Origin: Norana najaformis
Lineage: Eukaryota > Annelida > Clitellata > Crassiclitellata > Hormogastridae
DNA: 64,000 bases
Direction of reading: 5' to 3'
Assembly (NCBI GenBank): GCA_964023275.1
Contig: OZ029921.1
Coordinates: 11,041,806-11,105,805, forward strand
Shown: positions 3,654-64,000 of the stretch, piece after piece
Numbering within the stretch: position 1 is the stretch's first letter
Layout of the letters: each line of letters opens with the position of its first letter
Notes under the pieces: model-generated
What the model was told of the DNA's origin: nothing
Database searches by the model: none
The model's input: the letters and a program-made list of their open reading frames with translations, nothing else
Translations under genes and position numbers: made by a program

Positions 3654-3804
3654 CGAGAATGCCTCCGATCGTCAGGAAGTGCTCGGTTCTTATTGACAAT
3701 AGTGAAGTACGTAGCGTTCGTTTTGAAAAACGTAAAATGTACCTTTACAGCGCAGGAGATAACATCACCTTTTCTTGCGATGTGGATGGCAGACCATTTC
3801 CAAG
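3654..3804 (+). CDS. Exon: first half of Ig domain 1 of L1-like receptor
   Basis: The acceptor is TTATATCTTGCAG| and the donor CCAAG|GTAAAA. The exon starts in phase 1 and ends in phase 2. It encodes PPIVRKCSV at its start, then a B-strand with the first disulfide cysteine, NITFSCDVDGRPFPR (Cys codon 3776-3778). A proline pair at the domain start followed by a G.P.P turn is usual for I-set Ig domains of the L1/contactin group. The next exon supplies the tryptophan strand in frame. This is the first exon I can identify, so the signal peptide is missing from the annotation. Confidence 0.75.
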
Positions 3805-5501: not shown

Positions 5502-5656
5502 AGTAACATGGTACAAAGACACTCAAAACCTCGGAAGTAGCTCCACTGTTCTGAATCTACACCATGCACGAAAGAACAATGAAGGAATTTATGAGGCAGT
5601 TATTGAAAATGATTTCGGTCGATTATTTTCTATCGGAATGGAAATTAGACTGTCAG
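5502..5656 (+). CDS. Exon: second half of Ig domain 1, lacking the second disulfide cysteine
   Basis: The acceptor is TTTTCATGCAG| and the donor CTGTCAG|GTTAGT; phases are 2 in and 1 out. It begins with the core tryptophan (VTWYKD, Trp codon 5509-5511) and contains NEGIYEAVIENDFGRL and MEIRLSG. In L1-family Ig1 the corresponding strand reads GIY-x-C-x-(A/S)-N-x-x-G followed by EIRL, so the match is close. However, the second cysteine is replaced by alanine (GCA, 5596-5598). The domain would lack the intradomain disulfide, unless the extra cysteine upstream (RKCSV in the preceding exon) compensates. Splice sites and frame are intact, so this does not look like pseudogene decay. Confidence 0.75.
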
Positions 5657-8176: not shown

Positions 8177-8353
8177 GACTTGGACAGTTTGAAAGAGATA
8201 GTGGGCCAACGTTTCTAAAGTTCAAGAAAGGAGATTCATTCCCTCTCGGCTGCCGAGCACCTAACAGTGTGCCAACGCCAGAAATTAGATGGATAAAAAA
8301 AACGCAGAATACGCTCATCGATTTTGACGAAAGGATTGTCTTAGGCATTGACG
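8177..8353 (+). CDS. Exon: first half of Ig domain 2 of L1-like receptor
   Basis: The acceptor is GTGAATGTAG| and the donor GACG|GTTAGT; phase 1 at both ends. It encodes the domain start (SGPTFLKFKKGDSFPLGC) with the first cysteine, PTPEIRWIKK with the core tryptophan, then FDERIVLGIDG. The DER-x-x-x-G-x-x-G run just before the F strand is characteristic of Ig2 in L1CAM, neurofascin and contactins, and supports the family assignment. The exon flanks a 2.4 kb intron that holds two LINE fragments. Confidence 0.8.
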
Positions 8354-10725: not shown

Positions 10726-10842
10726 GTTCTCTGATCATCCTTAACGCAGATGTAACTGATTCAGGTAGTTATGCGTGTAAAGTAACAAATCGACAGTTAG
10801 ACGAAAGTCTAGAAAGCAAAGAAACTGTGGTCGAAGTTACTG
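10726..10842 (+). CDS. Exon: second half of Ig domain 2
   Basis: The acceptor is CCATTTGTAG| and the donor TTACTG|GTTAGT; phase 1 at both ends. It encodes SLIILNADVTDSGSYACK, the canonical L-x-I..V...D-x-G-x-Y-x-C F strand with the second cysteine, followed by VTNRQLDE and a G strand TVVEVTG. Together with 8177-8353 it makes a complete Ig domain of normal length, with both cysteines and the tryptophan. Confidence 0.85.
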
Positions 10843-13498: not shown

Positions 13499-13613
13499 AT
13501 GAAGCAACTTTCTATATTCAGCCAGTTATACAGAACAAAAACCCTACTAATGAAGAGACAGTCCTTGGTTTAGTGGGAGAAACGATTAAATTGCAGTGTG
13601 TCTTTTCTGGCAG
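13499..13613 (+). CDS. Exon: first half of Ig domain 3
   Basis: The acceptor is TGTATGTTTTAG| and the donor GGCAG|GTGAGC (a near-consensus donor); phase 1 in, phase 2 out. It encodes EATFYIQPVIQNKNPT, then VLGLVGETIKLQCVFSG with the first cysteine. An N-rich linker, V-x-L-x-G and L-x-C match Ig3 of the L1 family. The partner exon is 14.3 kb downstream. The phase 2 junction rejoins it as CVFSG-R-PKPQLLWYK. Confidence 0.8.
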
Positions 13614-27903: not shown

Positions 27904-28103
27904 ACCAAAGCCACAGTTGTTGTGGTACAAAGACTCGGCATCAGTTCCAGCTTCAGGCTATTCGGACAATCGCATGAGGGTCATAAACGAAAGCTATGTT
28001 CTGGTTATTGAGCACTTAACAAAAGCTGATGAGGGAAGCTATCTTTGCCAAGCAATTAACAGTGTTGGGTCAAATCAGTTCGCAACTAAACTCATTGTTC
28101 ATG
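27904..28103 (+). CDS. Exon: second half of Ig domain 3
   Basis: The acceptor is TTTACGAATTTCAG| and the donor TTCATG|GTATGA; phase 2 in, phase 1 out. It opens with PKPQLLWYKDS (core tryptophan), then RMRVINESYVLVIEHLTKAD and EGSYLCQAINSVGSNQFA with the second cysteine and the A-I-N-S-x-G turn, then the G strand. One N-glycosylation sequon (NES). A normal I-set half domain. Confidence 0.85.
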
Positions 28104-31724: not shown

Positions 31725-31856
31725 AGCCGCCTAAAATTACTGTGAGTCTACTATCAAAAAATATCACTGTTGGTGACAGTGCGGAATTCATATGTCAGGG
31801 CTTTGGAACACCTCATCCATCCATTGATTGGAGGGTCAATGGACATTTGGTCACAG
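31725..31856 (+). CDS. Exon: first half of Ig domain 4
   Basis: The acceptor is GGTTGAATTTTAG| and the donor GTCACAG|GTTGGT; phase 1 at both ends. It encodes PPKITVSLLSKNITVGDSAE, then FICQGFGTPHPSIDWRVNGH with the first cysteine and the core tryptophan. W-R-(I/V)-N-G after the C strand is a hallmark of Ig4 in L1CAM and its relatives. Contains one sequon (NIT). Confidence 0.85.
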
Positions 31857-34836: not shown

Positions 34837-34989
34837 CCGATTTCCTACATTTGTGGAATGGAAATATTTCATCCAAAAACTCTCAGCTGACATTTTACAA
34901 TGTAACCCGCAACCAAACTTGCAGCATACAATGTAATATTTCCAACGACTACGGATATGCCTTATCAAACGCATACTTGAACGTACTTG
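34837..34989 (+). CDS. Exon: second half of Ig domain 4, heavily glycosylated
   Basis: The acceptor is TTTGATTGCAG| and the donor GTACTTG|GTAAGT (near-perfect); phase 1 at both ends. It encodes FLHLWNGNISSKNSQLTFYN and VTRNQTCSIQCNISNDYGYA, then LSNAYLNVLG. The Q-C-N-x-S-N-x-x-G-Y...A-Y-L-N-V-L ending is the signature of Ig4 in neuroglian/L1 proteins and is the strongest single argument for the family. Four N-glycosylation sequons (NIS, NVT, NQT, NIS) fall within about 33 residues. An extra cysteine precedes the disulfide one by four residues. Confidence 0.88.
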
Positions 34990-43949: not shown

Positions 43950-44273
43950 CAGCCACAGAAATCGTGCAATCATCGGATGTTGCAATTAAAGAAGAGAATG
44001 GTTTCGTATTTCTCAACTGTGTAGCAGAAACAGATGCACAGACTCCAGTGAATGTTGTCTGGTTGCGTGGACCACAAGCACATGCGATCAAAGGAGACGC
44101 AGAATATATGCTGCTTCGAAATGGTTCTCTTCTGATTAACTGGACTAGCTCAGCGAATGATAATTACACTTGCCTAGCTTCCAATGGATTTTCATCGGAT
44201 ACTCGAACTATCCACGTTGAATTTGCTTCTGATAAAGAGCAAGAACCAATTTTAACTACATTTCAGATAGTAG
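43950..44273 (+). CDS. Exon: complete Ig domain 5 plus linker
   Basis: The acceptor is AAATTGTAG|CAG| (a NAGNAG pair; exon start 43950 or 43953, both in frame) and the donor TAG|GTAAGG; phase 1 at both ends. It encodes EIVQSSDVAIKEENG, VFLNCVAETD with the first cysteine, VNVVWLRG with the tryptophan, and LRNGSLLINWTSSANDNYTC with the second cysteine, ending LASNGFSSDTRTIHVEF. N-G-S/T-L-x-I is the usual E strand of L1-family Ig5. Unlike Ig1-4 it is not split by an intron. It continues with a polar linker (ASDKEQEPILTTFQIV). Three sequons (NGS, NWT, NYT). Confidence 0.85.
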
Positions 44274-44429
44274 GTAAGGTGATTTTGGATACATACATTA
44301 AATATTTGCTGAAAACCGAAATATGCTTTACCGATGACGTCGGCAAGATTAGAGATTTGTTAAATAATACAGCTAAATTGAACAATATTTTTTAGAATAA
44401 ATAAACTTATGGAGAAGTCATTTTGACGC

Positions 44430-44704
44430 CTAGTTGTTCATATGATACGGGAAGTAGAAGCACGTCCACACATTCTCTTCATATGCCCTGAGAAGATCAA
44501 TTGTTTATCCAAGGTCACACCCAAATTATGCACATTGTTAGAAAAAGAAACACCCAGGAAGCCCAACTGCAAATTAGGCAGATCTTCCACAGGGTTCCAT
44601 CTTGGATCGACTTTATAGATTCGACCTTGCTGTAAAGCCAGATGAACTTGGTTTTCCAAAGGTTCGGCTGGATGTGGGTGGGCAGCATTCAGACACCAAT
44701 ACCT
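44430..44704 (-). mobile_element. LINE family A-like RT C-terminal fragment
   Basis: Minus strand: KVDPRWNPVEDLPN, then NNVHNLGVTLDKQLIFSGHM, equivalent to the KTQFIWLG...LGVVLD.ELSLTDHV segment of family A. It forms a short truncated piece next to the full-size family C element. Confidence 0.6.
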
Positions 44705-47700
44705 CCGATGTATTTATTTATTTTTTATTTATTTAAAGCACTTGTAACGCGCGCAATGTCAGTAAACCTGAATCTGAGGCGCGGATGTATATTCGCTAGG
44801 GGCTAAGATGGAGTCATGCAAAAGCCAGGATGTAGTGAGTCTTATGAAGTGATTTAAAAATGATAGCTAGTTTGCAAGACGGGCCTTTTGTGGTAGACGA
44901 TTCCAAAAGCGAGGAGCACAACAGTTAAAGGCACGTGATCCTACAATTGTCCTGAACCAAAGTTCTTACTACAAACCAGTATCAGAAGAACGCAAGAATC
45001 TGGGAGGGCGATATGGAGTCAGCAAAGTTTTAAGATATGATGGAAGGCCAGTGTTCTGAGCCTTAAAAGTCAAGCATACAATTCTGAACTTAATACGCCA
45101 CTCAACAGGAAGCCAGTGAAGTTCACGAAGGCAATCTAATGCATTTGTTGAAGAAGAACATGTAACAACCCTAGAAAGAGAGTTTTGAACCCTCTGGAGC
45201 TTTTTTACGTTAAGAGAAGATATACCATATAACACCGCATTTGCATAGTCTGATCGGGAACCAACAAGTGCACATGCCACTGTTTTAGCCATGGCATTAG
45301 TCGGAGAATGTCTGATGTGATGAAATGCCTTGGTGTGGTAGAAACAAGACCTGCAAATCGAAAATACGTGTGAAGTCATAGTGAGCGAGTTGTCCAGGGT
45401 GACACCAAGAGTTTTGATTTTGTCTGATAATGGGATTTCGGTTCCTGCAAGGTCAATGGAAGAATGCGAAGTGAAAGACTGTATATGCTGGTGAGTTGTG
45501 AAAAGAATTGCCTCTGACTTATCTGGATCGACTGCAAGATCATTAAAGCAGAACCAAGTGTGAAGAGAGGACAAACAATGTTCCAGTTCAGTTTTAGCTG
45601 AGGAATCTGTTGCAGATAGAGCAACATAGAGTTGAGTATGATCAGCATATTGCTTGACCAATGTATTATGCATGCGTGCAATTTGACAAGTGGGCGAAAT
45701 AAAGATTGAAAAAAGGAGAGACCCGAGGACAGAACCCTGAGGTACACCTGAACAACAAGCTATAGGGTCAGAGCGAGATGAGTTTATTGCCACTCGGTGA
45801 GAATGATCATTGAGATAAGATGATATCCAGTGAAGAGCAGGACCAGTAATTCAAAAAGATGTGTAGAGTCGAGACAGCAGAATACCATGATCTACAGTAT
45901 CAAATGCTGAACTCAAATCAAGAGATATAAGAAGAGATGCTTTGCCAGAATCCATTGAATTAAATATATTGTTAAGTGTGCCAGTAAGAGCAGTGTCAGT
46001 TGAATGATGTTTATGATAAGCCGACTGAAAAGGACTAAAATTTGGAGATGTTACATGCCCCTGAAGACGTATGAAAAATAGGCGTTCAAGCAGTTTGGAG
46101 ATATTATTCAGATTGGAAATAGGCCTATAATTAGCCAGACAGTCCTTAACAAGATCAGGTTTTTTTAGTAGGGGTGTTACAAGAGCAGTTTTAAAAGCAG
46201 AGTGAAAGCGACCTTCACAAAAGGAGAGATTATCCAGGTGAGCAATGAGGATAGAAAACACACTTGAACAGGATTTAAGAAGGGAAGTTGGAATGAAGTC
46301 TAGTTGTGATGATTTAGATGGAACATTTTCAGTCTAGCAACTTCCTGTACTGTAACGGGAAGTAAGGTACAAAACTCATTACCAGGATTTCTAACATCGG
46401 GAAACAGTTTTGCCCTGTCTAACCCAACCCTACGCTTTGATATGGCAGACTTTAAGTTAGATATTTTAGCAGCAAAAAAATTTGAAAAACCTAAACAGAG
46501 CTTTTTGTCTTCAAGGTCAGTAGATAAATTGGCAGCACTGTTCAAGGAGTGAAGCAGCTTCTTTATGATGCTTCATCGGTCTTTCGAAGTTTCGGCAATG
46601 TCCAACTGGTTACGGTAGAACTGCTGTCGAGATGTTACGATTAGTTTGTTAGACACCCTGCATGCTTTTTGGTAGGCAGTTCTATCGCTTTCCTGCAGAG
46701 TTTTCTTCCACCGACGTTCCAGACGACGACGATCACGTTTGGCCTGCTTTGCTTCATCAGAAAGCCATTTTGTGATTGGCTTGGCAGGTCTTCTAAAGCA
46801 AGTGCGAACAGGCGCAACTTTATCTAGCTCCCTCAAAACAACGGTAGAGAGTTGCTCTACAAAAGCATCTGCTGTCTGGGCTGGATCTGAAAACAGTACA
46901 GTGTCGAACAGCGCATGCTCAAACTCGACTGGGTTGACCTGCTTGATTGAGCGAAAGGAAAGGGCAACTGGACGGTTGGACGTACCCACTGCTACTGTAG
47001 CAGTGATAAGACTGTGGTCAGAGATACAGCCAGCATCACTGACCCAAACATTTCAAACGGTCGCTGGATTATCAGTGTTTAGTAAATCCAGCAGATTTCC
47101 ACCGCGAGTAGGAGTTGAAACATGCTGGTTGAGATCGAATGATATTAGTAGATCATCTAACCAGTGGTCAATATGATTTCCATCACTGCCTGGACAGTTA
47201 GTCGCCGCAAACGAGCAGATGGTCATTTGTACTGGCAGTAATTGTGGAAATCATGTCCGAAAATTCGTCATAGAAGGTGTGAATGGAGCTTGATGGTGGA
47301 CGATAGATGTTGGCGATGATCAAAGAGAAAGCAGCTTTACCTGCTCGGCCAACTGAAGCTCATATGACGACGGATGAAAGGAGTCGGACAAAGGATGGAC
47401 GGTGACTTGAGTGGACGAACGGTAGATGACTGCAAGACCACCGCCTCGGCCAGGGCCGCCATCAACTGGCTGCCGGTGAACATGTATTACGGAGAAACCT
47501 TCTGGTGCCACTCCTTGCTTGACACATGTCGGTGCATCAGATGTGATCCACATCTCGGTTAGAGCAAATATCTCCAGACGTTCATCGGCTATGATGTCAT
47601 GGATATTCGCAGCATGATGAACAGCAGAACGAATATTCAGGGCTCCAAACTTCAATGACGAAGACTGAAGCGTCGTTTTGTTTACGTGTCCATGCGGTGG

Positions 47701-47850
47701 TCCAGGGTTAAGTTCGATGTTTCCAGACATGATCAGCAGTAGTGCCACAAGAAATGCATTAACCGACCGTCTCTTCCGAGGGTGAAATAGACATCCAGTT
47801 TGAGCCCACATCAGAACGATCGGAAAACTGTAGAGAGAGGACCGAGGACG
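44705..47850 (-). mobile_element. LINE family C (CR1-like), near full length, with 2A-like peptide
   Basis: The minus strand carries, in order: an N-terminal hydrophobic segment with the 2A-like motif (47698-47760); the APE endonuclease (FGALNIRSAVHHAANIHDII, GGGLAVIYRSS, ANIYRPPSSS, ISDHSLIT); a long linker (46573-46989 and 46300-46545); RT blocks ANYRPISNLNNISKLLERLF, LISLDLSSAFDTVDHGILLS, GVPQGSVLGSLLFSIF and QYADHTQLYVA (catalytic D-D mutated to D-H); LGVTLDNSLTMTSH; and a C-terminus with LHWLPVEWRIKFR. The 3' end lies in a TTTA-rich tract near 44710-44745. About 3.1 kb with few frameshifts, so one of the youngest elements here. It occupies the intron after Ig5. Confidence 0.88.
47698..47760 (-). 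other. 2A-like ribosome-skipping motif in LINE C
   Basis: The minus strand encodes FLVALLLIMSGNIELNPGPP just before the endonuclease. 2A-like peptides end in D-(V/I)-E-x-N-P-G|P and cause the ribosome to skip a peptide bond; they are reported at the N-terminus of APE-type LINEs of several invertebrates (established). Here the aspartate is asparagine (GN instead of GD), which may weaken activity. Confidence 0.7.
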
Positions 47851-48480
47851 TACGATAGCATTTAATTTATTAACCGTTAAACGTACAGGTAAACGGTTAA
47901 ACGTACAGGTATCAAGCATTTTATCCACTAAGGAGATTGCTTCTACAGCTGGGCCATGGAAATGCATCTGAATATAACCAGCATACTGATAAGCCGCAAT
48001 CCTAAAGAAGAAAGGATCAAAGTTAAGATGGCGGTGTTGAGAATGTAGAGTAGGGACCTTAAAATGGAACCATGTGGGAGATCTAGTGAGACCAAAGACA
48101 ATGCAAGAATCATGTAGAACAAAAGACCAGCCGAGGAATAAACACAACCACAACAGAGCACGACCCATGACACCGAACGACTTTGTAAGGGGCTCTAAAG
48201 AATGCCATGTTCAACAGCGTCGAAGGCCGCGGTCAAAATAAAAAGGGCGAATAGGGGTTAGAACAGACTATTTGGAATTAAACCTTCTGATGTTAGATAG
48301 GATGCAGTCTGCCTCAAGATAACATGTAAACTGCATCGGCAAACGTTTTTCAACTATCTTTAATAAGAAATGTAAGCTGGAGATGTTTCTAAACTATCCT
48401 TGATAAGAAATATAAGTTCGAGATAGGTCGATAATTGGCCATGTCATTAACATCTAAACGGCAGCACTTGAGAAGTCAAA
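47851..48480 (-). mobile_element. LINE family A remnant interrupted by LINE C
   Basis: Minus strand: ANYRPISNLYFLSRIV (about 48420-48465), decayed AFDAV.H and PHGSILRSLLYILNTA blocks, and QYAGYIQMHFHGPAVEAISL (YAGY replacing YADD). The frame runs into the LINE C start near 47850, so LINE C has inserted into this older RT. Confidence 0.65.
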
Positions 48481-48778
48481 ACAGTAGCCCATTTCTGAGA
48501 AGTGACAAAGGACCCGATGCCTCATCCAACTCAGTGTTTCAAAATACCAGTAAAAACGGCATATGATCATCAACAAAGTCTATGAACACAGTATTGCTGC
48601 TTAGTCAGAAAGTTTTATTCGAGCGATTTTATAGGAAATTTCCATGAGTCATTGGGTTATTGATTTGTCTGTACACGCGCAGATTATTGGCTGGCATGTG
48701 TCGCAAAATAGTTCGTCCGACAGGGGTGGGTGAGACGGCTTGGCCTGCGTGGCCCAGGACTTCACGTTTGACGTCGAG
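48481..48778. other. Nothing recognised
   Basis: No supported feature. A first-half exon for the domain at 49893 was sought here and not found. Confidence 0.4.
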
Positions 48779-49035
48779 GATGGAGTAAGTTGAAGATGGC
48801 ATCTCAAGCAGAGAGGGCGAAGATGGCTTCTCAGGCGGAGACGATGGCCGAGGCATAGACCTTCGACTCAGGCGAAGACGGTGAGGCGCAGACCGTCGAA
48901 GACAGCGTCCAGGCGGAGTCGGTAACCGAGGTGTAGACCGTCGACTCAAGCGAAGACGGTGAGGCGCAGACCGTCGAAGACAGAGCCCAACCGAGTCGAT
49001 GACCGAGGCGTAGACTGTCGATTCACGCGTTTACG
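48779..49035. repeat. GC-rich tandem repeat, about 78-base unit
   Basis: Units starting at about 48857, 48935 and 49012 share AGACCGTCGACTCAAGCGAA, GACGGTGAGGCGCAGACC and GTCGAAGACAG. A degenerate unit precedes them. Period is 78 then 77 bases, about three copies. Much richer in G+C and CpG than its surroundings. Confidence 0.85.
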
Positions 49036-49418
49036 CGTGTATTAGTGTAAGATTTTGAGTTGACTAACGCGTTTACTTACTTAAGATTATCGGCCGCCTT
49101 TAATCATTTCTAACATTAAAAATAGCGAGGCCACCGTAGGTGATAAAAATCTGTTAATTTGCGGTAAAATAAGACGAATGTCTGAACTTATTTTACGGGC
49201 GATTAACTTGGATGACAATGGATTATTTTGTTCACAATTTGCAGTTTTTTGTGAGTCAATTTGGACCATGTTTTCAAACTGATGCGTGGATTACCAACCA
49301 ATCACGGATTTACAGTGTTGGATTATTGAACAATGGCGTCGCATGACTGGAGAAAGTCAAGAACCAATGGGGTGGGACCTTAGTCATAACTGCTAACCTA
49401 AGGTGTGTAAGTTAGCAG
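49036..49418. other. Nothing recognised
   Basis: AT-rich, no exon. It ends with GTTAGCAG| at 49418, an acceptor-like sequence immediately left of a MITE. Confidence 0.4.
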
Positions 49419-49426
49419 ACGGCAGG

Positions 49427-49893
49427 ACTTGCGTCTAAATGCTCAAAAGATTTATGTAGCTATTTTTAGCTCAACCAATCAGGTCGAACAGGAAGTTCAC
49501 AATTACCACCTATCAAAGAAGAACACTGTGCGTTAAGTTGATTTCTAGAACTAAGCTGGATCCCATGACTTTGCCTCTTTGGGTGCCATAGAAATCTCAA
49601 GTCTACGATTATTACATTATTTCTTTTACATTATTTCTTTTACATTATTTTTTTTTCTTTTTCCAGTGAATTTTACTATTTTTCATTTTATTTGCAACAG
49701 CCATCTCTGGTCATTATTTTTTCTACTTCTATAAGCTGCACCTTATATTGTGTTTCCAGTTGTTAATTCAGAATTCAGAGTAAACGAGGCTATTTGTTTC
49801 TCTTCTTTGATTGGTGGTAACTGTGAACTTCCGGTTGACGTGATTGGTTGAGCTAAAATTAGCTACATAAATTTTGAGCATTTAGACGCAAGT
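49427..49893. mobile_element. MITE with about 100-base terminal inverted repeats
   Basis: The left arm (49427-49527) begins ACTTGCGTCTAAATGCTCAA. The right arm (49795-49893) read on the other strand begins ACTTGCGTCTAAATGCTCAA, and both continue through AGCTCAACCAATCA. The flanks GACGGCAGG (49418-49426) and GACGGACGG (49894-49902) agree at 7 of 9 positions, which suggests a 9-base target duplication as in Mutator-like elements (inference). Length 467 bases, no coding capacity. Its right end abuts the candidate exon. Confidence 0.85.
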
Positions 49894-50036
49894 GACGGAC
49901 GGCCTGATCTTCAGCACACAGAAAGAAGGGTTGAAATATCAGACGACGAATTTGGCCAATGGCGAAGTGACAGCTATTTCGAATGTTCAAGGCGAAAATC
50001 GTTTTGGAGAGGTAGTTCACAGCTGGATGTTGGACG
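49893..50036 (+). CDS. Candidate exon: membrane-proximal Ig/FN3-like half domain
   Basis: The frame gives TDGLIFSTQKEGLKYQTTN, LANGEVTAISN, VQGENRFGEVVHSWMLDG. The ...ENRFGE... turn resembles the F-G region of an Ig or FN3 domain. The donor GGACG|GTGAGG is good and ends in phase 1, matching the transmembrane exon. The start is uncertain: a weak AAG acceptor at 49892 gives phase 1 and joins Ig5 directly, while TTTAG at 49885, within the MITE arm, would be phase 0 and need an unseen exon. No first half of this domain was found between Ig5 and here; the intervening 5 kb is mostly LINE. Confidence 0.5.
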
Positions 50037-50276
50037 GTGAGGTCCTTGTCGAAGTTTAAGCATGACTCAGAGAAAATTAGTCAGTTTTAGGGCTAATGAA
50101 TTAGTCAAACTCCGTTTTAGTTTGATGGGCTGGTAATCGCTCACAGTACAGGTAATTAGCCTAAGTTACGTGGCTTTTCGACATAGTTTAGTCAAGAAAC
50201 TATCGTCTGGAACTTGTGGATTTTAATCCATGGAAATCTCGAAAAATAAGCACATCTTTATAAGCCTAAAGTTGAC

Positions 50277-50440
50277 AAAGAACCTTATCTTTGGACTGGA
50301 TGATTAAATGTGTGTAATCAAAGATCCTAATCTTTGGATGGTACAATACAGCCATGCGTCGTGAAAGAATCTTATCTTTGGACGGTAACTGAAGAGTCGC
50401 TTGGCATCTAAGAATCCTTCCTTTGGACTGCAAAGTGCAA
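50277..50440 (+). repeat. Degenerate tandem repeat, about 44-base unit
   Basis: Four units starting near 50277, 50320, 50364 and 50410, each opening with AAAGAAyCTTATCTTTGGAC or a variant and then diverging. In the intron before the transmembrane exon. Confidence 0.75.
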
Positions 50441-51145
50441 GTCGCAAGTACGGAATACGGGAATAAGAGTAACACATTGTCTACACGGTCTGTCGGTGAG
50501 CTGTGGTGAGACATTTGTAAGACGGTGAGATTTGGTGAGTGATAACACTTCATTCATCATTTCTTCATGAAAACACCCAAGGACAGTGATAAGAAAAGTG
50601 AATCAGTTATAAGACTTCTTCTACAAAGAGTCAAAATACATGAAATATAAATGGCCACAATTCTTCGTGGGTGGTAGAATTATTGAGCAAACTGAGTTTT
50701 TTGAGGCAGTGTATTTGTCCATATCGAACGAGACGTTTAACTGAGCTGGCTCAAGTGGCCACATCCGTCTGTTCACTCCTCCATATACAACCATGAGACT
50801 CATAATTCGCTGTCTGTATCCCAGTTCTCTGGTGTTTAAGTCCAGATTAAAATCTTTTTTGGATTGTATGAGCTCTTTGATCAAGACTGTCCTGTGATGA
50901 TGTAATGCGATTTCATGCGGACACTGACTGATGCATTGTGAAATACGATAGCGGTATTATTGAAGTTTATAATGAGATTGGATTGAAGTATTAAAATCAG
51001 CCGACATGTTTTGAATTGGCACCAGTAATAGTTGCTTAAGTTTTAATTTTCTATTTGAGAAGTTAATGTTTAAAAAGAAAAACCTTCACAATAACTCCTT
51101 TTCTATTAGGGTACTCGATTTCTATATGAAGTGAGACTTCTGCCC
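50441..51145. other. Intron sequence, nothing recognised
   Basis: No exon or transposon assigned. Confidence 0.4.
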
Positions 51146-51212
51146 GTAAGCAAAGTCAGCTTATGCAAAGAAGTGCAAACATCACTTGTTTGAACAAGCT
51201 GACTTTGCTTAC
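51146..51212 (+). other. Stem-loop with 17-base perfect arms
   Basis: GTAAGCAAAGTCAGCTT at 51146-51162 pairs exactly with AAGCTGACTTTGCTTAC at 51196-51212, with a loop of 33 bases. A further AAGTGAG/CTCACTT pair extends the stem after a bulge. Lies in the intron before the transmembrane exon, on the transcribed strand. Confidence 0.7.
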
Positions 51213-51467
51213 CCTCACTTATGAGCTTAAAGTTTTATCTGATATTTTTATGCAGAGATGTTGTTGTCTTTCTTAACACATTTACAAGGTATTTATTTTA
51301 GAAAAATCTCCTATAGGTTGTGAACATGCGTGTATGTTAGGTGTCATCAATGCTTAGAAATTAAAATATGTTTGCTAGTCATAATCTTACTGTGCTTGCT
51401 GTTTAAAACTTCATACATATTGCTCTGGCTCGACTGTAGGGTTATAACGTCTATATTCTTCTGTTAG

Positions 51468-51676
51468 GAATTTCTGGAGGTATTTCACTTGGAGTATTTG
51501 TTGGAATAATGATTGCAGTTGTATGCATTTCTCGTCTACGTAAGAATAAACATCGCCACCACCACCACATATTGATGTCGTCATCGCATTCGTCAACTAG
51601 AATCCTCATGCCTCAGCTTTCTTATGCCAGTCATGGAGATTCACGATCTGTTGAGTCTAACGAATGTAATCTATAA
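51468..51676 (+). CDS. Exon: transmembrane segment and short cytoplasmic tail
   Basis: The acceptor is TATTCTTCTGTTAG| in phase 1. It encodes ISGGISLGVFVGIMIAVVCI, a glycine-containing single membrane span, followed by a basic, histidine-rich stop-transfer (RLRKNKHRHHHH), a serine-rich tail (MSSSHSSTRILMPQLSYASH) and, after VESNECNL, the stop TAA (51674-51676). No ankyrin-binding FIGQY-type motif, unlike L1-family tails. AATAAA at 52160-52165 could serve as poly(A) signal for this end. Alternatively GAAT|GTAATC at 51665/51666 acts as a phase 1 donor to the kinase-start exon at 53972, giving a much longer cytoplasmic part. Confidence 0.8.
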
Positions 51677-52249
51677 TTTGGATATTTTGATGTTTTGGCT
51701 CTTGTGTAATCGTCTTTAGGCTGTGTTAATATTATTCAGTCTATGTCACTTTATCGTCTTCAAGTTTTCTGCATAGTTTTCAAGCTAATAATGTTCCGAA
51801 GCAATTTATAGCGTACTCGCTTAATTTATTGTTACCTTGATTATGACTAAGCGCATGTCCATGGCCATTTTGGCCGTTGATTTGTCTGTTACGTTTACTT
51901 TTGCAAATTAGTTGATCTCATGCGGAAGTCCCTCAGTAAGCCTGCTTCTGTATATTTGGACTTATCTGCGGCCGAGTCTGCGTTCTGGAGATATTTTTCA
52001 TTTCTGCACAGGAGTTCTCGTATTTTTCTCGTATTTTTTTCTCGGTCAATCATCACTTGTCAATCGGACAAGTTCATTTGTAAGGAGGGTCTGGTTTCTA
52101 TCCGCACTGTCGAGCTTCGGGCATATGCCTGATGTCTGGAACAGAGAGGTCTCGGATTCAATAAAGGAAGAGCAAACAGTACCTGTAGTCGTGTTATATG
52201 TCACTCATGGACAAGTACTATGTCCACCTGGCGGGCTGTCAATGAATGT
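51677..52249 (+). other. Possible 3' untranslated region / intron
   Basis: No coding sequence recognised. AATAAA at 52160-52165 lies about 485 bases after the stop codon. It lies just upstream of repeat R copy 4, so its role is uncertain. Confidence 0.35.
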
Positions 52250-52560
52250 GTGCCCTGCGCACATCTCCTGCTTCCGGAGATATGGTGATGCTGCGTTTTT
52301 CCATCTGTGCGGGACTGTTAGGTGGTGAGGCAACCGTGTGCCTTTGGCCGCGGAACACATCACCTGTCGTTGTTTCTCATCCTCACTGCTACGCGGTCCT
52401 GGAACTCTGGACATGTTATCAACTAGTACTAAAGAGGGAAAGCGTTGGTTGGACGTGACATGTTGAAGCCCGCATCTGGTGACTTTTATAGTTATTTGAG
52501 CATAGCTTGCTTATTGATGAACGTTTGCTGTTAATGAAATTTAACATTAGGCATAGTTAG
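52250..52560 (+). repeat. Dispersed repeat R, copy 4
   Basis: Contains GGAGATATGGTGATGCTGCG, TTAGGTGGTGAGGCAACCGT and GTCGTTGTTTCTCATCC, collinear with the inverted copy at 11150-11470. It then has the GCCCGCATCTGGTGACTTTT and AGTTATTTGAGCATAGCTTG blocks shared with copies 1 and 3. Confidence 0.55.
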
Positions 52561-52569
52561 AGCAGGGTA

Positions 52570-52645
52570 GAGAGCGCCGCGGATTAGTTTATCTTGAAGC
52601 AGCACAATACAAATTTATGATTAGAGTTACAGTTTGAGAGGCACC
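52570..52645 (+). mobile_element. 3' terminus of LINE family A
   Basis: GAGCGCCGCGGATTAGTTTA, then TCTTGAAGCAGCACAATACA, match the LINE A end at 7640-7710 and run into a GATTAGAGTTACAG remnant of the terminal GATTAC repeat. Confidence 0.55.
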
Positions 52646-53971
52646 AAAATTAGTATAACTAAATTCAGTTTACAATTAAAACTTAACACATGACCTTTAA
52701 CTCGCGTTTTCAACTGTTTAACTCCATTTTGTTCCACTTACGTAAGAAGATCTGCAAATTCTTCAGTTTAAATTGTCAAGTTTTCCTAGTATCAGTTACC
52801 TACATCTTCCCTACTGTATTAACCTTGTCAGTTATTTACAATCCAGCCACTCCGGTCCTCTTCCCCCAACACTTATAATTGCTTGGATACATACATACAT
52901 CTCCGCTCTTCCATCATCTCATTCTTAAAATTTGAAAATTGATCCATAGCCATTGCTGCTTAGCCCCTCTGGAGCAAATATTCTATCTCATTGTCATTAG
53001 ATTTGACAGCCTGTATAATTACATATCAGCTGTAGCAACTGTCTCAGTGAGCCCCAACATTTGCTGGATACTGCTGGTTTTTAGCAATGCGAGGATAAGA
53101 GCAATACGTCACATCAGGTTAGTTCTTACCAAAGATATTTCACGAAATAAGGCGCTGTCCAGTTTTCTCTAGCTTAGATTACCCCAAATCTTGAGTTCAG
53201 GAAAGTTCAAAGCATCCAAAATTCTTTGCCTCACGTAGTGTTCCTTGCACCTACTCGTACACCCTAACAATGAAAACAGAAGAAGCGATCTTAACTCGTT
53301 GCCAGTCACCCTGTTAAACCGATCAAAGTGCATTGGGTTGTGGCATAGGCTACTTTGGCAAAGCTGAGCTTTCTGCATCTCGTCATACATCTGAAACTTT
53401 TTATTAGGTGGTGAAGATAGTCCTCTTGTTAGAAGAACGGTCCTTGCAAGCTATGTGGTCTGCCCAAGATCGTTTACAGATTACTCCAATACCGCCAAGG
53501 GTCAACTACCCTTTGAGTCATGTTCAAATTAGTCAAGGCTTCCTGTCAAAGCGATTCATGAAAATAAACTCGCACATGCCTAATATTGCAGTGTAATGTA
53601 GTGTTATACAATTAATGAAATGTGAAAATGTATGTAATGTTATGTCAGATTGTAATCAAAAGCACTACAAGCAGAGTGTTTTACATTGTCAGCTCTCAGT
53701 GCATGTGGCGGTCTAGGCAATGATTCAAATGTTTTTGAATGTCCAGCCGCTCAGTTAAACTTTGGTAGTAACATCACCAATTTCTGACTTGTTCTTGAAC
53801 AACGCGAGTCACTAGTATTAAGTTTGAAGTCAATTCGGGTTTTTCAGATTAATAGATTAAAATTTCAATTTTCTTTGTTGAATAATTTGACTGTACTACT
53901 ATGGCCATATGTGACTTTCATCCCAAAATAAGCATTCTTGAAATATACTGAATGATTTTTGGTTTGAATAG
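52646..53971. other. Nothing recognised
   Basis: AT-rich sequence without a supported gene. It would be intron if the transmembrane and kinase-start exons belong to one transcript. Confidence 0.4.
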
Positions 53972-54094
53972 GTCTAGTGTGTGAGAATGGATGGTGCACG
54001 CCTCTCTTGCCACTTAACGATCGCCTGAAAGCCACTATTCGACAAATGTATATTCAAAGAGATCGACTACAACTGGAAAAAATAATTGGCAAAG
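53972..54094 (+). CDS. Candidate exon: juxtamembrane segment and start of a tyrosine kinase domain
   Basis: The acceptor is TTTTTGGTTTGAATAG| (a second candidate is CTAG| at 53977) and the donor GGCAAAG|GTATTG; phase 1 at both ends. It encodes LVCENGWCTPLLPLNDRLKA, then TIRQMY and QRDRLQLEKIIGKG. In receptor kinases (Axl/Tyro3/Mer, Met/Ron, PTK7 types) a segment (R)-x-x-L-x-L/I-x-K-x-(I/L)-G-x-G begins the glycine-rich ATP loop G-x-G-x-(F)-G. Here the intron cuts within the third codon of G-K-G. The rest of the kinase (VAIK, HRD, DFG) is not in the remaining 9.9 kb, which is mainly transposons. The acceptor phase matches a donor in the transmembrane exon. Confidence 0.55.
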
Positions 54095-54108
54095 GTATTG
54101 TATTATTC

Positions 54109-54207
54109 GACTTGGCCGTGTCTGAGCCCCTCCCGCATGCAGACTTGGCTGTGTCTGACCTCCTCCCGCATGCGGACTTGGCCGTCTCTCACCTCCTCCC
54201 GCAGGCA
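54109..54207 (+). repeat. Three 33-base tandem repeats
   Basis: Units start at 54109, 54142 and 54175 with GACTTGGCCGTGTCTGAGCC or close variants and contain CTCCCGCATGC. The unit is a multiple of three and the kinase-start frame stays open through it (until 54255), although the donor at 54094 makes it intronic. Confidence 0.9.
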
Positions 54208-54770
54208 GACATAGCATCAGGACGAAGGAGTGAAGTAATGCTGTTGCAGCGCTGAACAATAGATTACGCCGTAATGATCGAATTTGACGCAGCTGATAGT
54301 AGCACGACCTGCACAACGAATCGACGTTGTCAGCCATGGACAGCTCACCGTCTATAAGCACTCCCAGTTCACGGACCAGCTGTTGGGGTGACCAGCCCGG
54401 AAATGATGAGAGTAGCTCCTGTTGGTTGATTTTGGCCCGAGCTTGACGAGTACTAATCCACAAAAATTGTGTTTTGGATGGGTTAAGCCAAAGGCGATTC
54501 GATGACATCCACACCTGTACGTATGTCACAGTTCCCAGCACCGTCGTAAGGCAGGCGAGAGAATCAGCAGGACGACAGCTGGAATAAAGCTGGACATCGT
54601 CAGCATATTGATGAACTCGGGCGCCACGTGTAGTAATGATACGAGTCAGATCTGCTGTATAAAGAATGTAAAGGAGCGGCCCAAGGACCGAACCCTGAGG
54701 AACGCCGAAAGAGACTGGGACCCAGTCTGAGCAGGCTGACTCAATAGCTACCATCATCATCAGCAGGTGT
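54208..54770 (-). mobile_element. CR1-like LINE RT fragment (family A relative)
   Basis: Minus strand: SFGVPQGSVLGPLLYILYTA, DLTRIITTRGARVHQYADDV with intact YADD, VWMSSNRLWLNPSKTQFLWI, VRELGVLIDGELSMADNVDS and CRSCYYQLRQIRSLRRN. Diverged from the other family A copies (GVPQGSVLGP rather than GLPQGSVLAP). Its 3' side ends at the 33-base repeats. Confidence 0.8.
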
Positions 54771-55214
54771 GATTTTGTGCGCGAGTTTCAATACCTCACA
54801 CATTACCACTACAGGCCGTTCTTAAGTTCGCTGGCTTTACTTCCTTTCTTTTCTTGAAGTGAGTAAATTACATTTGAAAAGCTGGGAACGTCCACAAAAT
54901 TCAGCACAGAACTCAAGATGTATAACACTGGATCACAACGATTTTGCTACTGAAAGTAATGCATGTGCCTTATATTGATTCAAATGTGCTGATTCCAAAT
55001 ATGAAGTCAGAATTTGCCCAGCACGTCTAGATTTTAAGTTATGCATGCATTCAAATAATGACGTAAGGACTCGTTTTCGGTTATGTCTGTACATTCTGTT
55101 GTATGTGTCTCCACGATTGCTGCCAGTGATACGTGCATGCCTGCAAGTGTCGCCTGAAATATTCCTAACAGCAAGCCTGCAGCAGCCGCTAGACATGATT
55201 GGGCATGTCAGCGA

Positions 55215-55246: not shown

Positions 55247-55316
55247 CGAGATTGCGTAGAACGAAGGTGAAGTTTTCTTATATAGCTGTAGCTAGTGTGT
55301 GAGATTTAATTTTGAA

Positions 55317-56979
55317 ATGAATAGGCGAGGCTGTGTTAACCATCCAGACAATTTTTGCTATGTTTGTGGTAAATATACTCTTTGTGACCAGCGCAAGAAG
55401 TTAACTAAGAGAGTGATGATTGCTTACAAGTATTATTTTGGATGTCAAATCGGAGACCAGGATAAAAGTTGGGCACCTCATGTCTGCTGCACCGTGTGCT
55501 ACTCTGGGCTTACACAGTGGCTGAATGGCAAAAGGAATTCAATGCCGTTTGCTGTGCCTATGGTGTGGCGCGAGCCAAGAAATCATCATGCAGACTGTTA
55601 TTTCTGCATTACTAAAGTTGCTGGATTTTCAAAGAAAAATAAGTCTAAAATCGTTTATCCTGATTGCGAGTCCGCTCTAAAGCCAGTGCCGCATGATGAA
55701 GAGAATCCAGTACCATTTCCGCCTGCTGCGGGTGCTGATGAAACGGACAGTTCTGATGGTAATACAGAAGATGACGTTACTGTTTATGAATCCAGTGATC
55801 AAGATTTGGAAGAGGGTAGGCCGCATTTGATAAGGCAAGGTGAGTTAGATGATCTGGTGAGGGACCTATATTTAACAAAGGAGAAATCTGAACTGTTAGC
55901 CTCCAGACTAGGGGAGTGGAACTTGCTTCAAAAAGGTACCACAACATCACACTTCCTTATCGTCACAAACAGTTAGCTACATATTACAAACTGGAAAATG
56001 ATATCTGTTTCTGTACTGACGTGAACGGTCTCATGCTGAATTTAGGTTGCGAATACGTTCCAGATCAGTGGAGACTGTTCATAGATTCCAGCCAAGCGAG
56101 CTTGAAAGCTGTGTTGGTGCACAATGGTAACGAAAAGCCGTCTGTTCCTATAGCCCACGCTGTAGGCCTCAAAGAGACATATGATTCAATGAAACTCATT
56201 TTGAAAGTGATCAACTACTCAGACCACAAATGGAACATCTGTGCGGACCTCAAAGTGGGAGCACTTATTCTAGGCCTACAGCTGGGGTACACAAAACATA
56301 TGTGCTTTTTGTGCTTGTGGAACAGTCGTGATGACAGCAACCATTACAAAGTGAAACTGTGGCCTCCTAGATCTGAGCACGTTGGTCGGCACAACGTGCA
56401 ACACGAACCATTGGTTGATCCATTGAAAGTGTACTTACCACCACTTCACATTAAACTGGGCCTCATGAGGAATTTCGTAGTGGCAATGGATCGTACTGGA
56501 CAAGGCTTCCAGTATCTGAGAGATAAATTTGGAGCCGTCAAAACCGATGCTAAGCTGAAGGCTGGAATTTTTATTGGGCCAGAAATCCGCGAACTAATGC
56601 GTGATACTGTATTTAGAACCAAGCTCAAGAATTTACCGCTTGGGATGCATGTACGTTGGTGGTGCAAAACTTCCTTGGGAATCACCGAGCTGAGAACTAT
56701 GCTGAACTCGTTAGCAACATGCTAACAACATATAAGCAACTCGGCTGCCGGATGTCACTAAAAATACATTTCTTACATTCCCATCTGGATTTTTTCCCAC
56801 CAAACTTGGGTGATGTAAGCGATGAGCATGGAGAGAGATTCCATCAAGACATCTCCACCTTTGAAGCAAGATATCAGGGCCACTGCAATTCCAACATGAT
56901 GGGCGATTACTGCTGGTTTCTGCAGCGGGCAACAGTGGCCACTCACGAGCGCAAGAGCAAGTGTCTAAAGCACTTTTGA
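55317..56979 (+). CDS. Transposase-like protein of an uncharacterised animal family (two frameshifts)
   Basis: The start is ATG 55317 (MNRRGCVNHPDNFCYVCGKY). The N-terminus is a cysteine-rich DNA-binding-type region (CYVC, CCTVC, CYFC) with VPMVWREPRNHHADCYFC. After an acidic linker come NDLYLTKEK-like sequence, WRLFIDSSQASLKAVLVHNG, WNICADLKVGALILGLQLGY, the CFLCLWNSRDDSNHY zinc-type motif, LPPLHIKLGLMRNFV, GIFIGPEIRELM and a C-terminal HSHLDFFPPNLGDVSDEHGE-RFHQD. Proteins like this occur in many copies in arthropods, cnidarians and others, usually unnamed. D (FIDSS), D (CADLK) and E (DEHGE) could be a DDE triad (inference). About 550 residues. The frame shifts near 55930-55950 and again near 56655-56670, so this copy is not functional. 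Read as a pseudogene-like transposase. Confidence 0.75.
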
Positions 56980-62625: not shown

Positions 62626-62734
62626 AATGTTTAAGTAGTATGGGACGTTGATTTTTACAAGCGATAGGAAATTTTATAGTTTTGTGCGTGTGGAAACTTT
62701 CATGTCGATATAGAGATATCATTGGGGTCTTGAA

Positions 62735-64000
62735 TCTCTAACTACCGACCTATCTCTAACCTTTCCTTCCTCTCCAAGCTTCTTGAAAGATGTGTGTCCG
62801 TCGAACTGGTTGACTACCTTGACTCTAACTCCCTCATGCCTCCTCTTCAATCCGGATTTAGGAAGTTCTCACTTATTAGACATTTCTTGGACGACTTCTT
62901 TGGAGCTTTTGACCGTGGACAGGTTACCTCTTCTTGCCCTCTATGATGTTAGTGCTGCTTTTGACACTGTGGATCAATCTATCCTTTTGGAGCATCTAGA
63001 AAAATCTTTTGGCATTACTGATACTGCCCTTCTTTGGTTTCAGTCATTCCTCTCAGATCGCTCTCATTATGTTATCTTTGGGCCTACATGTTCTGTCTGG
63101 TCCCTTATACCTTTTGGCCTTCCTCAGGGTTCTGTCCTGGCCCATCTCCTTTACATTCTACACTGCCGACCTGGCACGGGTTCTCCTTCCCATGGGTGTT
63201 GCTGTCCATCAGTATGCAGACGACACTCAGGCCTTTGTTCATGGCCCAGCGGAAGCGGCTCCCTCTCTGGTTGAGAGTATTCTTGACGCAACATCTGCCC
63301 TTGGTCTCTGGATGTCCTCTAATCGCCTCCGACTGAACTCTGCTAAGACCCAGTTCATCTGGCTTGGTGGCCGTGCTCAGCTTGCTAAGATTGATTTATC
63401 ATCCTTACATCAGAGGTTTCCGGACATTCTATTCTGTTCCAAAGTCCGTGATCTTGGGGTTGTTCTGGACCAGGAACTCTCCTTGACCGATCATGTTAAC
63501 AGTGTCTCCCACTCATGCTTTACCACCTTCGTCAGCTTCGTACCATCCGCCGCTCTAATTCATGCCCTTATCTGCACCAGGGTGGACTTTGGTAACACTA
63601 TCTTTGCTGGACTCCATTTGCCAATATTTCCAAGCTTCAGTCTGTTCTCAATGCTACTGCCCGTCTTATTGGAGGCGTCCCCAGGTATGGCCATATAACT
63701 TCCTTTATGCGGGACACTTTGCACTAGCTTCCCATTCCAGTTCAAGATCCTAACCCTTATGCGTAATTGTCTCGTTGGCTCTGCTCCATCATATCTTAGG
63801 GACTTCTGCATTTCGGTCTCCTTGGTTCCAGGCCGTAGCACTATCTGGTCAGCCTCCCTTGGACTCCTGACTGTCCCTTGTATGCGCACTGCTACAGCTC
63901 TGTCTAGAAGCTTTGCCTATGTTGGACCTATTAGCTGTAATCGCCTTTCCCGAGAGCTCCGGCTTGAATTCCTCAGTTTGTCTCTTCCGCAGTTTCGCAA
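62735..64000 (+). mobile_element. LINE family A, RT region, cut by the window end
   Basis: Sense strand: decayed first RT blocks, LYDVSAAFDTVDQSILLEHL, PFGLPQGSVLAHLLYIL, VAVHQYADDTQAFVHGPAEA with intact YADD, SNRLRLNSAKTQFIWLGGRA, LGVVLDQELSLTDHVNSVSH and LICTRVDFGNTIFAGL. At least three frameshifts. Very similar to 18600-19860 (opposite strand), so both derive from one recent subfamily. Continues past the window. Confidence 0.88.

Follow-up and report, generated by a model that had tools for sequence, protein, structure and literature searches.

A putative MET-family receptor tyrosine kinase with an L1/contactin-like immunoglobulin ectodomain in the annelid Norana najaformis

RESULTS

Seventeen exons at the locus join into one reading frame. 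The window is the whole stretch of 64,000 nucleotides that was analyzed (G000:C9:11041806-11105805, from a genome of 608 Mb in 17 contigs), and it was examined together with flanks of 100 kb on the downstream side and 40 kb on the upstream side, 204 kb in all including 5,000 N. Positions are in window numbering; numbers greater than 64000 or less than 1 denote flanking sequence. Along this region, 17 exons encoding five immunoglobulin (Ig) domains, a membrane span, a juxtamembrane part, and a complete tyrosine kinase give a single frame of 909 residues (Table 1). The joined exons are free of stops, with GT-AG at every border, and the other five frames of the joined sequence contain 37 to 64 stops each. 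The Ig half-exons were located by pattern scans and their borders were then selected among candidate splice sites; the later kinase exons were located by tblastn with kinases from the same genome, and the glycine-loop exon was added by targeted scans. The agreement in phase is partly by construction, because borders were selected among several candidates to maintain an open frame. The evidence independent of border choice is that domains are continuous across the joins, the kinase being a single match (Pfam PF07714, E value of 1e-88), and that the frame has no stops.

The coding exons cover at least 94 kb, and introns of the model reach 14.3 kb. When the 42 kb upstream were scanned for the combination of a start codon, a hydrophobic stretch, and a strong phase-1 donor, the single hit was a candidate signal-peptide exon at -19592 to -19484 that lies about 23 kb upstream of Ig1 and is in phase with it. 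Eight of the 15 pieces of the region (134 kb) were searched against Rfam and gave no matches. Reverse-transcriptase matches in the introns, at 44969-45847 (minus strand), 54035-54784 (minus strand), and 62714-63271 (plus strand, below the cut-off), are retroelement remains. In the intron after K1, open frames that overlap one another and reach 277 amino acids lie at 55296-56979 (plus strand); the two of these that were tested had no Pfam match.

Table 1. Exons of the predicted receptor gene and of its counterpart on contig C3
Feature	Position	Strand	Phase in/out	Remarks
Ig1 first-half exon	3654..3804	+	1/2	Pfam Ig_3/I-set together with second half
Ig1 second-half exon	5502..5656	+	2/1	Pfam Ig with first half
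Ig2 first-half exon	8177..8353	+	1/1	Pfam Ig
Ig2 second-half exon (Ig2b)	10726..10842	+	1/1	Weak C3 counterpart, 39% identity, E 0.006
Ig3 first-half exon	13499..13613	+	1/2	Pfam Ig
Ig3 second-half exon	27904..28103	+	2/1	Pfam Ig
Ig4 first-half exon (Ig4a)	31725..31856	+	1/1	C2 counterpart, 37% identity
Ig4 second-half exon (Ig4b)	34837..34989	+	1/1	Counterparts on C2 (56% identity) and C3 (51% identity)
Ig5 whole-domain exon and linker	43950..44273	+	1/1	Counterpart on C2
Membrane-span exon, His-rich cytoplasmic start	51468..51665	+	1/1	C2 counterpart in position and phase but not in sequence
K1, juxtamembrane exon into kinase glycine loop	53972..54094	+	1/1	C2 counterpart, 43% identity
K2, glycine-loop exon	65526-65609	+		Beyond window
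K3, kinase exon	68036-68220	+		Beyond window
K4, kinase exon	81209-81318	+		Beyond window
K5, kinase exon	89067-89232	+		Beyond window
K6, kinase exon	89854-89990	+		Beyond window
K7, kinase exon	97612 to stop at about 97816	+		Beyond window
C3 Ig2b	40803877			E 0.006, weak
C3 Ig4b	40808055			51% identity, E 8e-5
C3 kinase exons	K3 40812780, K4 40813487, K5 40814237, K6 40815250

The ectodomain is an array of five Ig domains. A preliminary description of this DNA had proposed an in-phase series of L1-like Ig exons, and the series is real, with nine half- or whole-domain exons within 3654-44273. All five joined Ig segments matched Pfam Ig families, four of them above the gathering score; Ig5 was the weakest (Ig_3, E 5e-6, below the cut-off). 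Among PDB proteins, neurofascin (query residues 21-401), contactin-4 (33-400), and contactin-5 (36-400) matched Ig1 to Ig4 in single long stretches, and Robo1 (30-398) and sidekick-2 (29-398) spanned them as well. The totals for the array were 163 bits for titin, 150 for Dscam, 147 for contactin-1, 145 for Robo2, 140 for contactin-2, and 135 for neurofascin, the coverage by neurofascin and contactins being judged from match ranges and the alignments inspected being those of titin and Dscam. The label "L1-type" thus holds for Ig1 to Ig4 in the sense of an L1/contactin-like array but does not hold as a unique assignment: because Robo1 and sidekick-2 also cover Ig1 to Ig4, and the totals of titin and Dscam are the highest, the array is L1/contactin-like and not provably L1. 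Further resemblance presumably extends to details of L1 Ig2 and Ig4. In the stretch from Ig5 to the membrane span, 10 of the plus-strand open frames were tested and none held a fibronectin type III (FN3) domain. None of the 27 Sema matches in the genome falls at this locus.

The kinase belongs to the MET/RON clade. Later kinase exons, whose absence from the window the preliminary description had named as a weak point, are present downstream in order and on the same strand, from 65526 to about 97816. In tblastn searches the DFG exon gave an E value of 7e-10 and the HRD exon one of 5e-7, and a profile search of the joined protein, the check proposed earlier, recognized both the Ig families and the tyrosine kinase. 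The GxGxFG loop, the VAVK lysine, HRDLAARN, DFG, and APE are all intact, twin activation-loop tyrosines are found in RDYYRV, and the tail motif YHNI perhaps resembles a Grb2 site. By these motifs, the predicted kinase would be an active tyrosine kinase. Against PDB, the kinase scored 288 bits with MET, 266 with RON, 247 with AXL, 236 with MER, 226 with TYRO3, and 216 with IGF1R; the top row, at 305, was an EGFR chain whose total combines two stretches of kinase, about 152 for each. In a tree of 19 rows, five of them human sequences entered by hand and with C3 left out, the window gene grouped with a paralogue on contig C2 (100/99) within a MET clade (100/98) that contains human MET, human RON, and all ten rows entered from the same genome, and the TAM kinases stood apart (100/99). 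Six of those ten rows fill less than half of the columns, and the branching order within the MET clade is poorly resolved. By this phylogeny the predicted kinase is a member of the MET/RON clade and lies outside TAM. We rejected the possibility that the kinase exons derive from a retroelement, given their standard multi-exon kinase layout and the codon-position bias described below.

A second locus repeats the order of parts. The best non-self genome match of the Ig5 exon is C2:18871839 (37% identity, E 1e-6; 35 of 100 aligned residues identical). It sits 5.1 kb upstream of C2:18876941, which among the matches listed is the non-self kinase of highest identity (74%), some single-exon kinases having better E values because of their longer matched length. 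Within the 3 kb of C2 that was read, Ig5, a membrane-span exon (donor 8/9), K1, and K2 occur, each readable as phase 1/1, and the two Ig4 halves lie just upstream of Ig5, at 18870367 (37%) and 18871240 (56%). The order on C2 is therefore Ig4a, Ig4b, Ig5, membrane span, K1, K2, and later kinase exons; counterparts of Ig1 to Ig3 were not found there in genome searches with the exon sequences. On C3, a stretch of 11.5 kb holds Ig2b, Ig4b, and K3 to K6, in this order and on one strand; Ig5, the membrane span, K1, and K2 had no counterpart there among the matches listed in the genome searches. The two best non-self places of the Ig4b exon genome-wide are those on C2 and C3, and no Sema match falls at either locus.

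The window gene and its C2 paralogue differ at 11, 5, and 35 of 54 codons at the first, second, and third codon positions, respectively, in K5 (the DFG exon), and at 15, 5, and 28 of 45 codons in K6, a bias expected for selection on protein. Ig5 shows a slight bias (54, 36, and 66 of 100), and the membrane-span exons, which share 11 of 44 aligned residues, show none (21, 25, and 30 of 44). At the level of gene structure, the equivalent order of predicted parts on C2 is the strongest evidence that the Ig and kinase exons of the window belong to one gene. Together, the C2 and C3 loci suggest that this genome has one further gene of Ig-MET build at minimum, and probably two.

The proposed join between membrane span and kinase is in frame. 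The preliminary description had placed the joint between adhesion and kinase parts at two exons, and both were confirmed with the borders and phases given there. The membrane-span exon has its acceptor at 51468 (...TTCTGTTAG/GAATTT, the slash marking the border) and its donor at 51665 (GAAT/GTAATC), and the lead-in exon K1 has AG and GT borders. The proposed join reads ...SVESNE-C-LVCENGW...IIGKG, in frame. The donor at 51665 is mediocre, agreeing with the consensus at 6/9 letters; the same exon contains another phase-1 donor, at 51539, which has an equal score (6/9) and a join that is likewise in frame. Pfam found no L1-type ankyrin-binding tail family in the membrane-span exon, and the lead-in exon alone was uninformative as a Pfam or PDB query.

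If the donor at 51665 is not used, the membrane-span frame runs to a stop at 51676, and an AATAAA follows at 52160. These features would suit two adjacent genes, one for an Ig adhesion protein whose frame closes at 51676 and whose poly(A) site falls near 52165, the other for a MET-like kinase that begins further downstream and has an ectodomain of its own. We regard this arrangement as very unlikely. Of nine hydrophobic open frames in 44274-53971, four have a phase-1 donor of at least 5/9, at 49605 (6), 51366 (5), 51482 (6, the membrane-span exon), and 51946 (5); the one at 51946 is alone in being located between the stop and K1, and the one at 51482, followed by Arg and Lys, is alone in resembling a true span when judged by eye. 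Moreover, the nearest kinase paralogue, on C2, repeats the order of Ig, membrane span, and kinase. The AATAAA at 52160 means little by itself, because AATAAA or ATTAAA occurs four times in this 2.3 kb. The same mediocre donor, early stop, and poly(A) signal could instead reflect isoforms of a single gene, with the full receptor accompanied by a kinase-less membrane form (unspliced at 51665, poly(A) at 52160) that would act as a decoy or serve adhesion only. Other receptor kinases have truncated forms, and we regard such an isoform as a possibility, though a rather doubtful one given the four poly(A)-type signals; it complements the reading as one Ig-kinase receptor gene and does not oppose it.

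A receptor of the TAM type (AXL, MER, and TYRO3) would account for the Ig domains, which TAM receptors carry as well, and AXL is the next PDB match after MET and RON. In addition, the lead into the glycine loop, judged by eye, is without a two-residue insert that is present in MET, and AXL is likewise without it. We nonetheless consider a TAM assignment extremely improbable, since in the tree the kinase groups within the MET clade, with the TAM kinases in a clade of their own, and since the ectodomain has five Ig domains, with FN3 absent from the frames tested.

MET-like kinases with other outer parts occur in the genome. At least 13 other loci match K5 and K6 as two separate pieces with about equal limits (150 of 364 candidates scored). 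Sema matches lie about 20 to 28 kb upstream of MET-like kinase exons, on the same strand, at C9:14.72, C14:6.98, and C4:21.15 Mb, and this nearness suggests that Sema and kinase exons form one gene at each place. Tandem MET-like kinase genes are found on the minus strand of C12:12904001-12930000. One of them has MET-type kinase exons with about equal limits and, in place of Ig domains, an IPT/TIG domain (E 1e-6); a weak F5/8 type C match in this gene falls below the cut-off, and inspection by eye shows a membrane span. With Sema-linked, IPT-bearing, and Ig-bearing MET-like kinases in one genome, the outer part has apparently been exchanged, and one kinase type seems to be carried on several outer parts.

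DISCUSSION

The exons at this locus very probably make up one gene, encoding a single-pass receptor tyrosine kinase with five Ig domains outside, of which Ig1 to Ig4 are of the L1/contactin type, and a complete MET-family kinase inside. A chimeric Ig/kinase receptor, as first suggested for this DNA, is the best reading of the locus: the remaining kinase exons are present downstream, one frame runs through all 17 exons, and C2 repeats the order of Ig4, Ig5, membrane span, and kinase. Beyond the single gene, we lean toward a small family of two or three genes in which the MET ectodomain would have been swapped for an L1/contactin-type Ig array, so that a single molecule would couple cell-cell adhesion directly to a MET kinase. 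The exchange would probably have used the phase-1 introns on either side of the ectodomain and membrane-span exons. For the receptor itself we infer the following course. The Ig array would bind a partner on a neighboring cell, either itself or another Ig protein, or else a soluble ligand; binding would cluster the receptors and bring their kinases together; the kinases would phosphorylate the twin tyrosines in RDYYRV; and the phosphorylated receptor would recruit adaptors, perhaps a Grb2-like one at YHNI.

Proteins of the L1 family have six Ig domains, FN3 repeats, and an ankyrin-binding cytoplasmic tail. The predicted receptor resembles this family (neurofascin, neuroglian) and the contactins in that Ig1 to Ig4 are matched along their length and phase-1 introns bound each Ig domain, but it differs from the L1 family in its five Ig domains, in the lack of FN3 from the frames tested, and in a kinase that replaces the ankyrin-binding tail. 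The TAM receptors, with two Ig and two FN3 domains, share with it the combination of Ig domains and a kinase of a related family, but its kinase lies outside their clade. An Ig ectodomain on a tyrosine kinase is also found in FGFR, VEGFR/PDGFR, Trk, MuSK, ROR, and PTK7; these have kinases of other classes, whereas the kinase described here scores best with MET. To our knowledge, L1-type adhesion and receptor kinase functions reside on separate proteins in the animals studied so far, and coupling of adhesion to a kinase has usually been argued between separate L1 and receptor-kinase proteins. The receptor, if real, would be a natural single-molecule version of that coupling.

The kinase clade, the best PDB matches, and the twin activation-loop tyrosines are those of MET and RON. 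The ectodomain of MET, as outlined in PMC6374515, consists of Sema, PSI, and four IPT domains, whereas the window gene has five Ig domains outside and no Sema match at its locus. The same source describes the Met-LP receptors of lophotrochozoans and echinoderms, in which a MET-like kinase carries a complete plexin ectodomain (Junqueira Alves et al. 2019, PMC6374515). Met-LP is alike in joining a MET-class kinase to a different ectodomain in invertebrates; its plexin-type ectodomain begins with Sema, however, where the window gene has Ig domains instead. According to its search description, that survey worked by key word and Sema sequences (PMC6374515), so a survey of this design would miss a MET receptor of the Ig type. 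The open-licence PubMed Central literature, as far as its listings and abstract openings go, yielded no description of an Ig-bearing MET receptor, and relatives in other animals may exist unremarked. A plexin-like ectodomain is the hallmark of known MET receptors; if the prediction is correct, the MET kinase has been reused with another outer part. How the exchange proceeded could be traced step by step in this annelid, because Sema-linked kinases, one IPT-bearing kinase gene, and Ig genes coexist in its genome.

Several further loci were encountered in these searches. An Ig4b-like exon at C6:38324263-38324373 (54% identity, E 3.5e-4) has no MET-like kinase nearby among the matches listed, and it possibly belongs to the true L1-type gene of the genome or to a fourth member of the family. 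At C15:22.52-23.74 Mb, 23 of the 36 matches to a query running from Ig5 to K2 fall within about 1.2 Mb on the plus strand, all of them to the Ig part (E 4e-4 to 0.7), and probably mark a large tandem cluster of Ig genes. Open frames of more than 1,000 amino acids on contigs C12, C1, C5, and C11 have, by eye, a kinase domain after an SH2-like stretch, and in some of these the HRD/DFG motifs appear altered.
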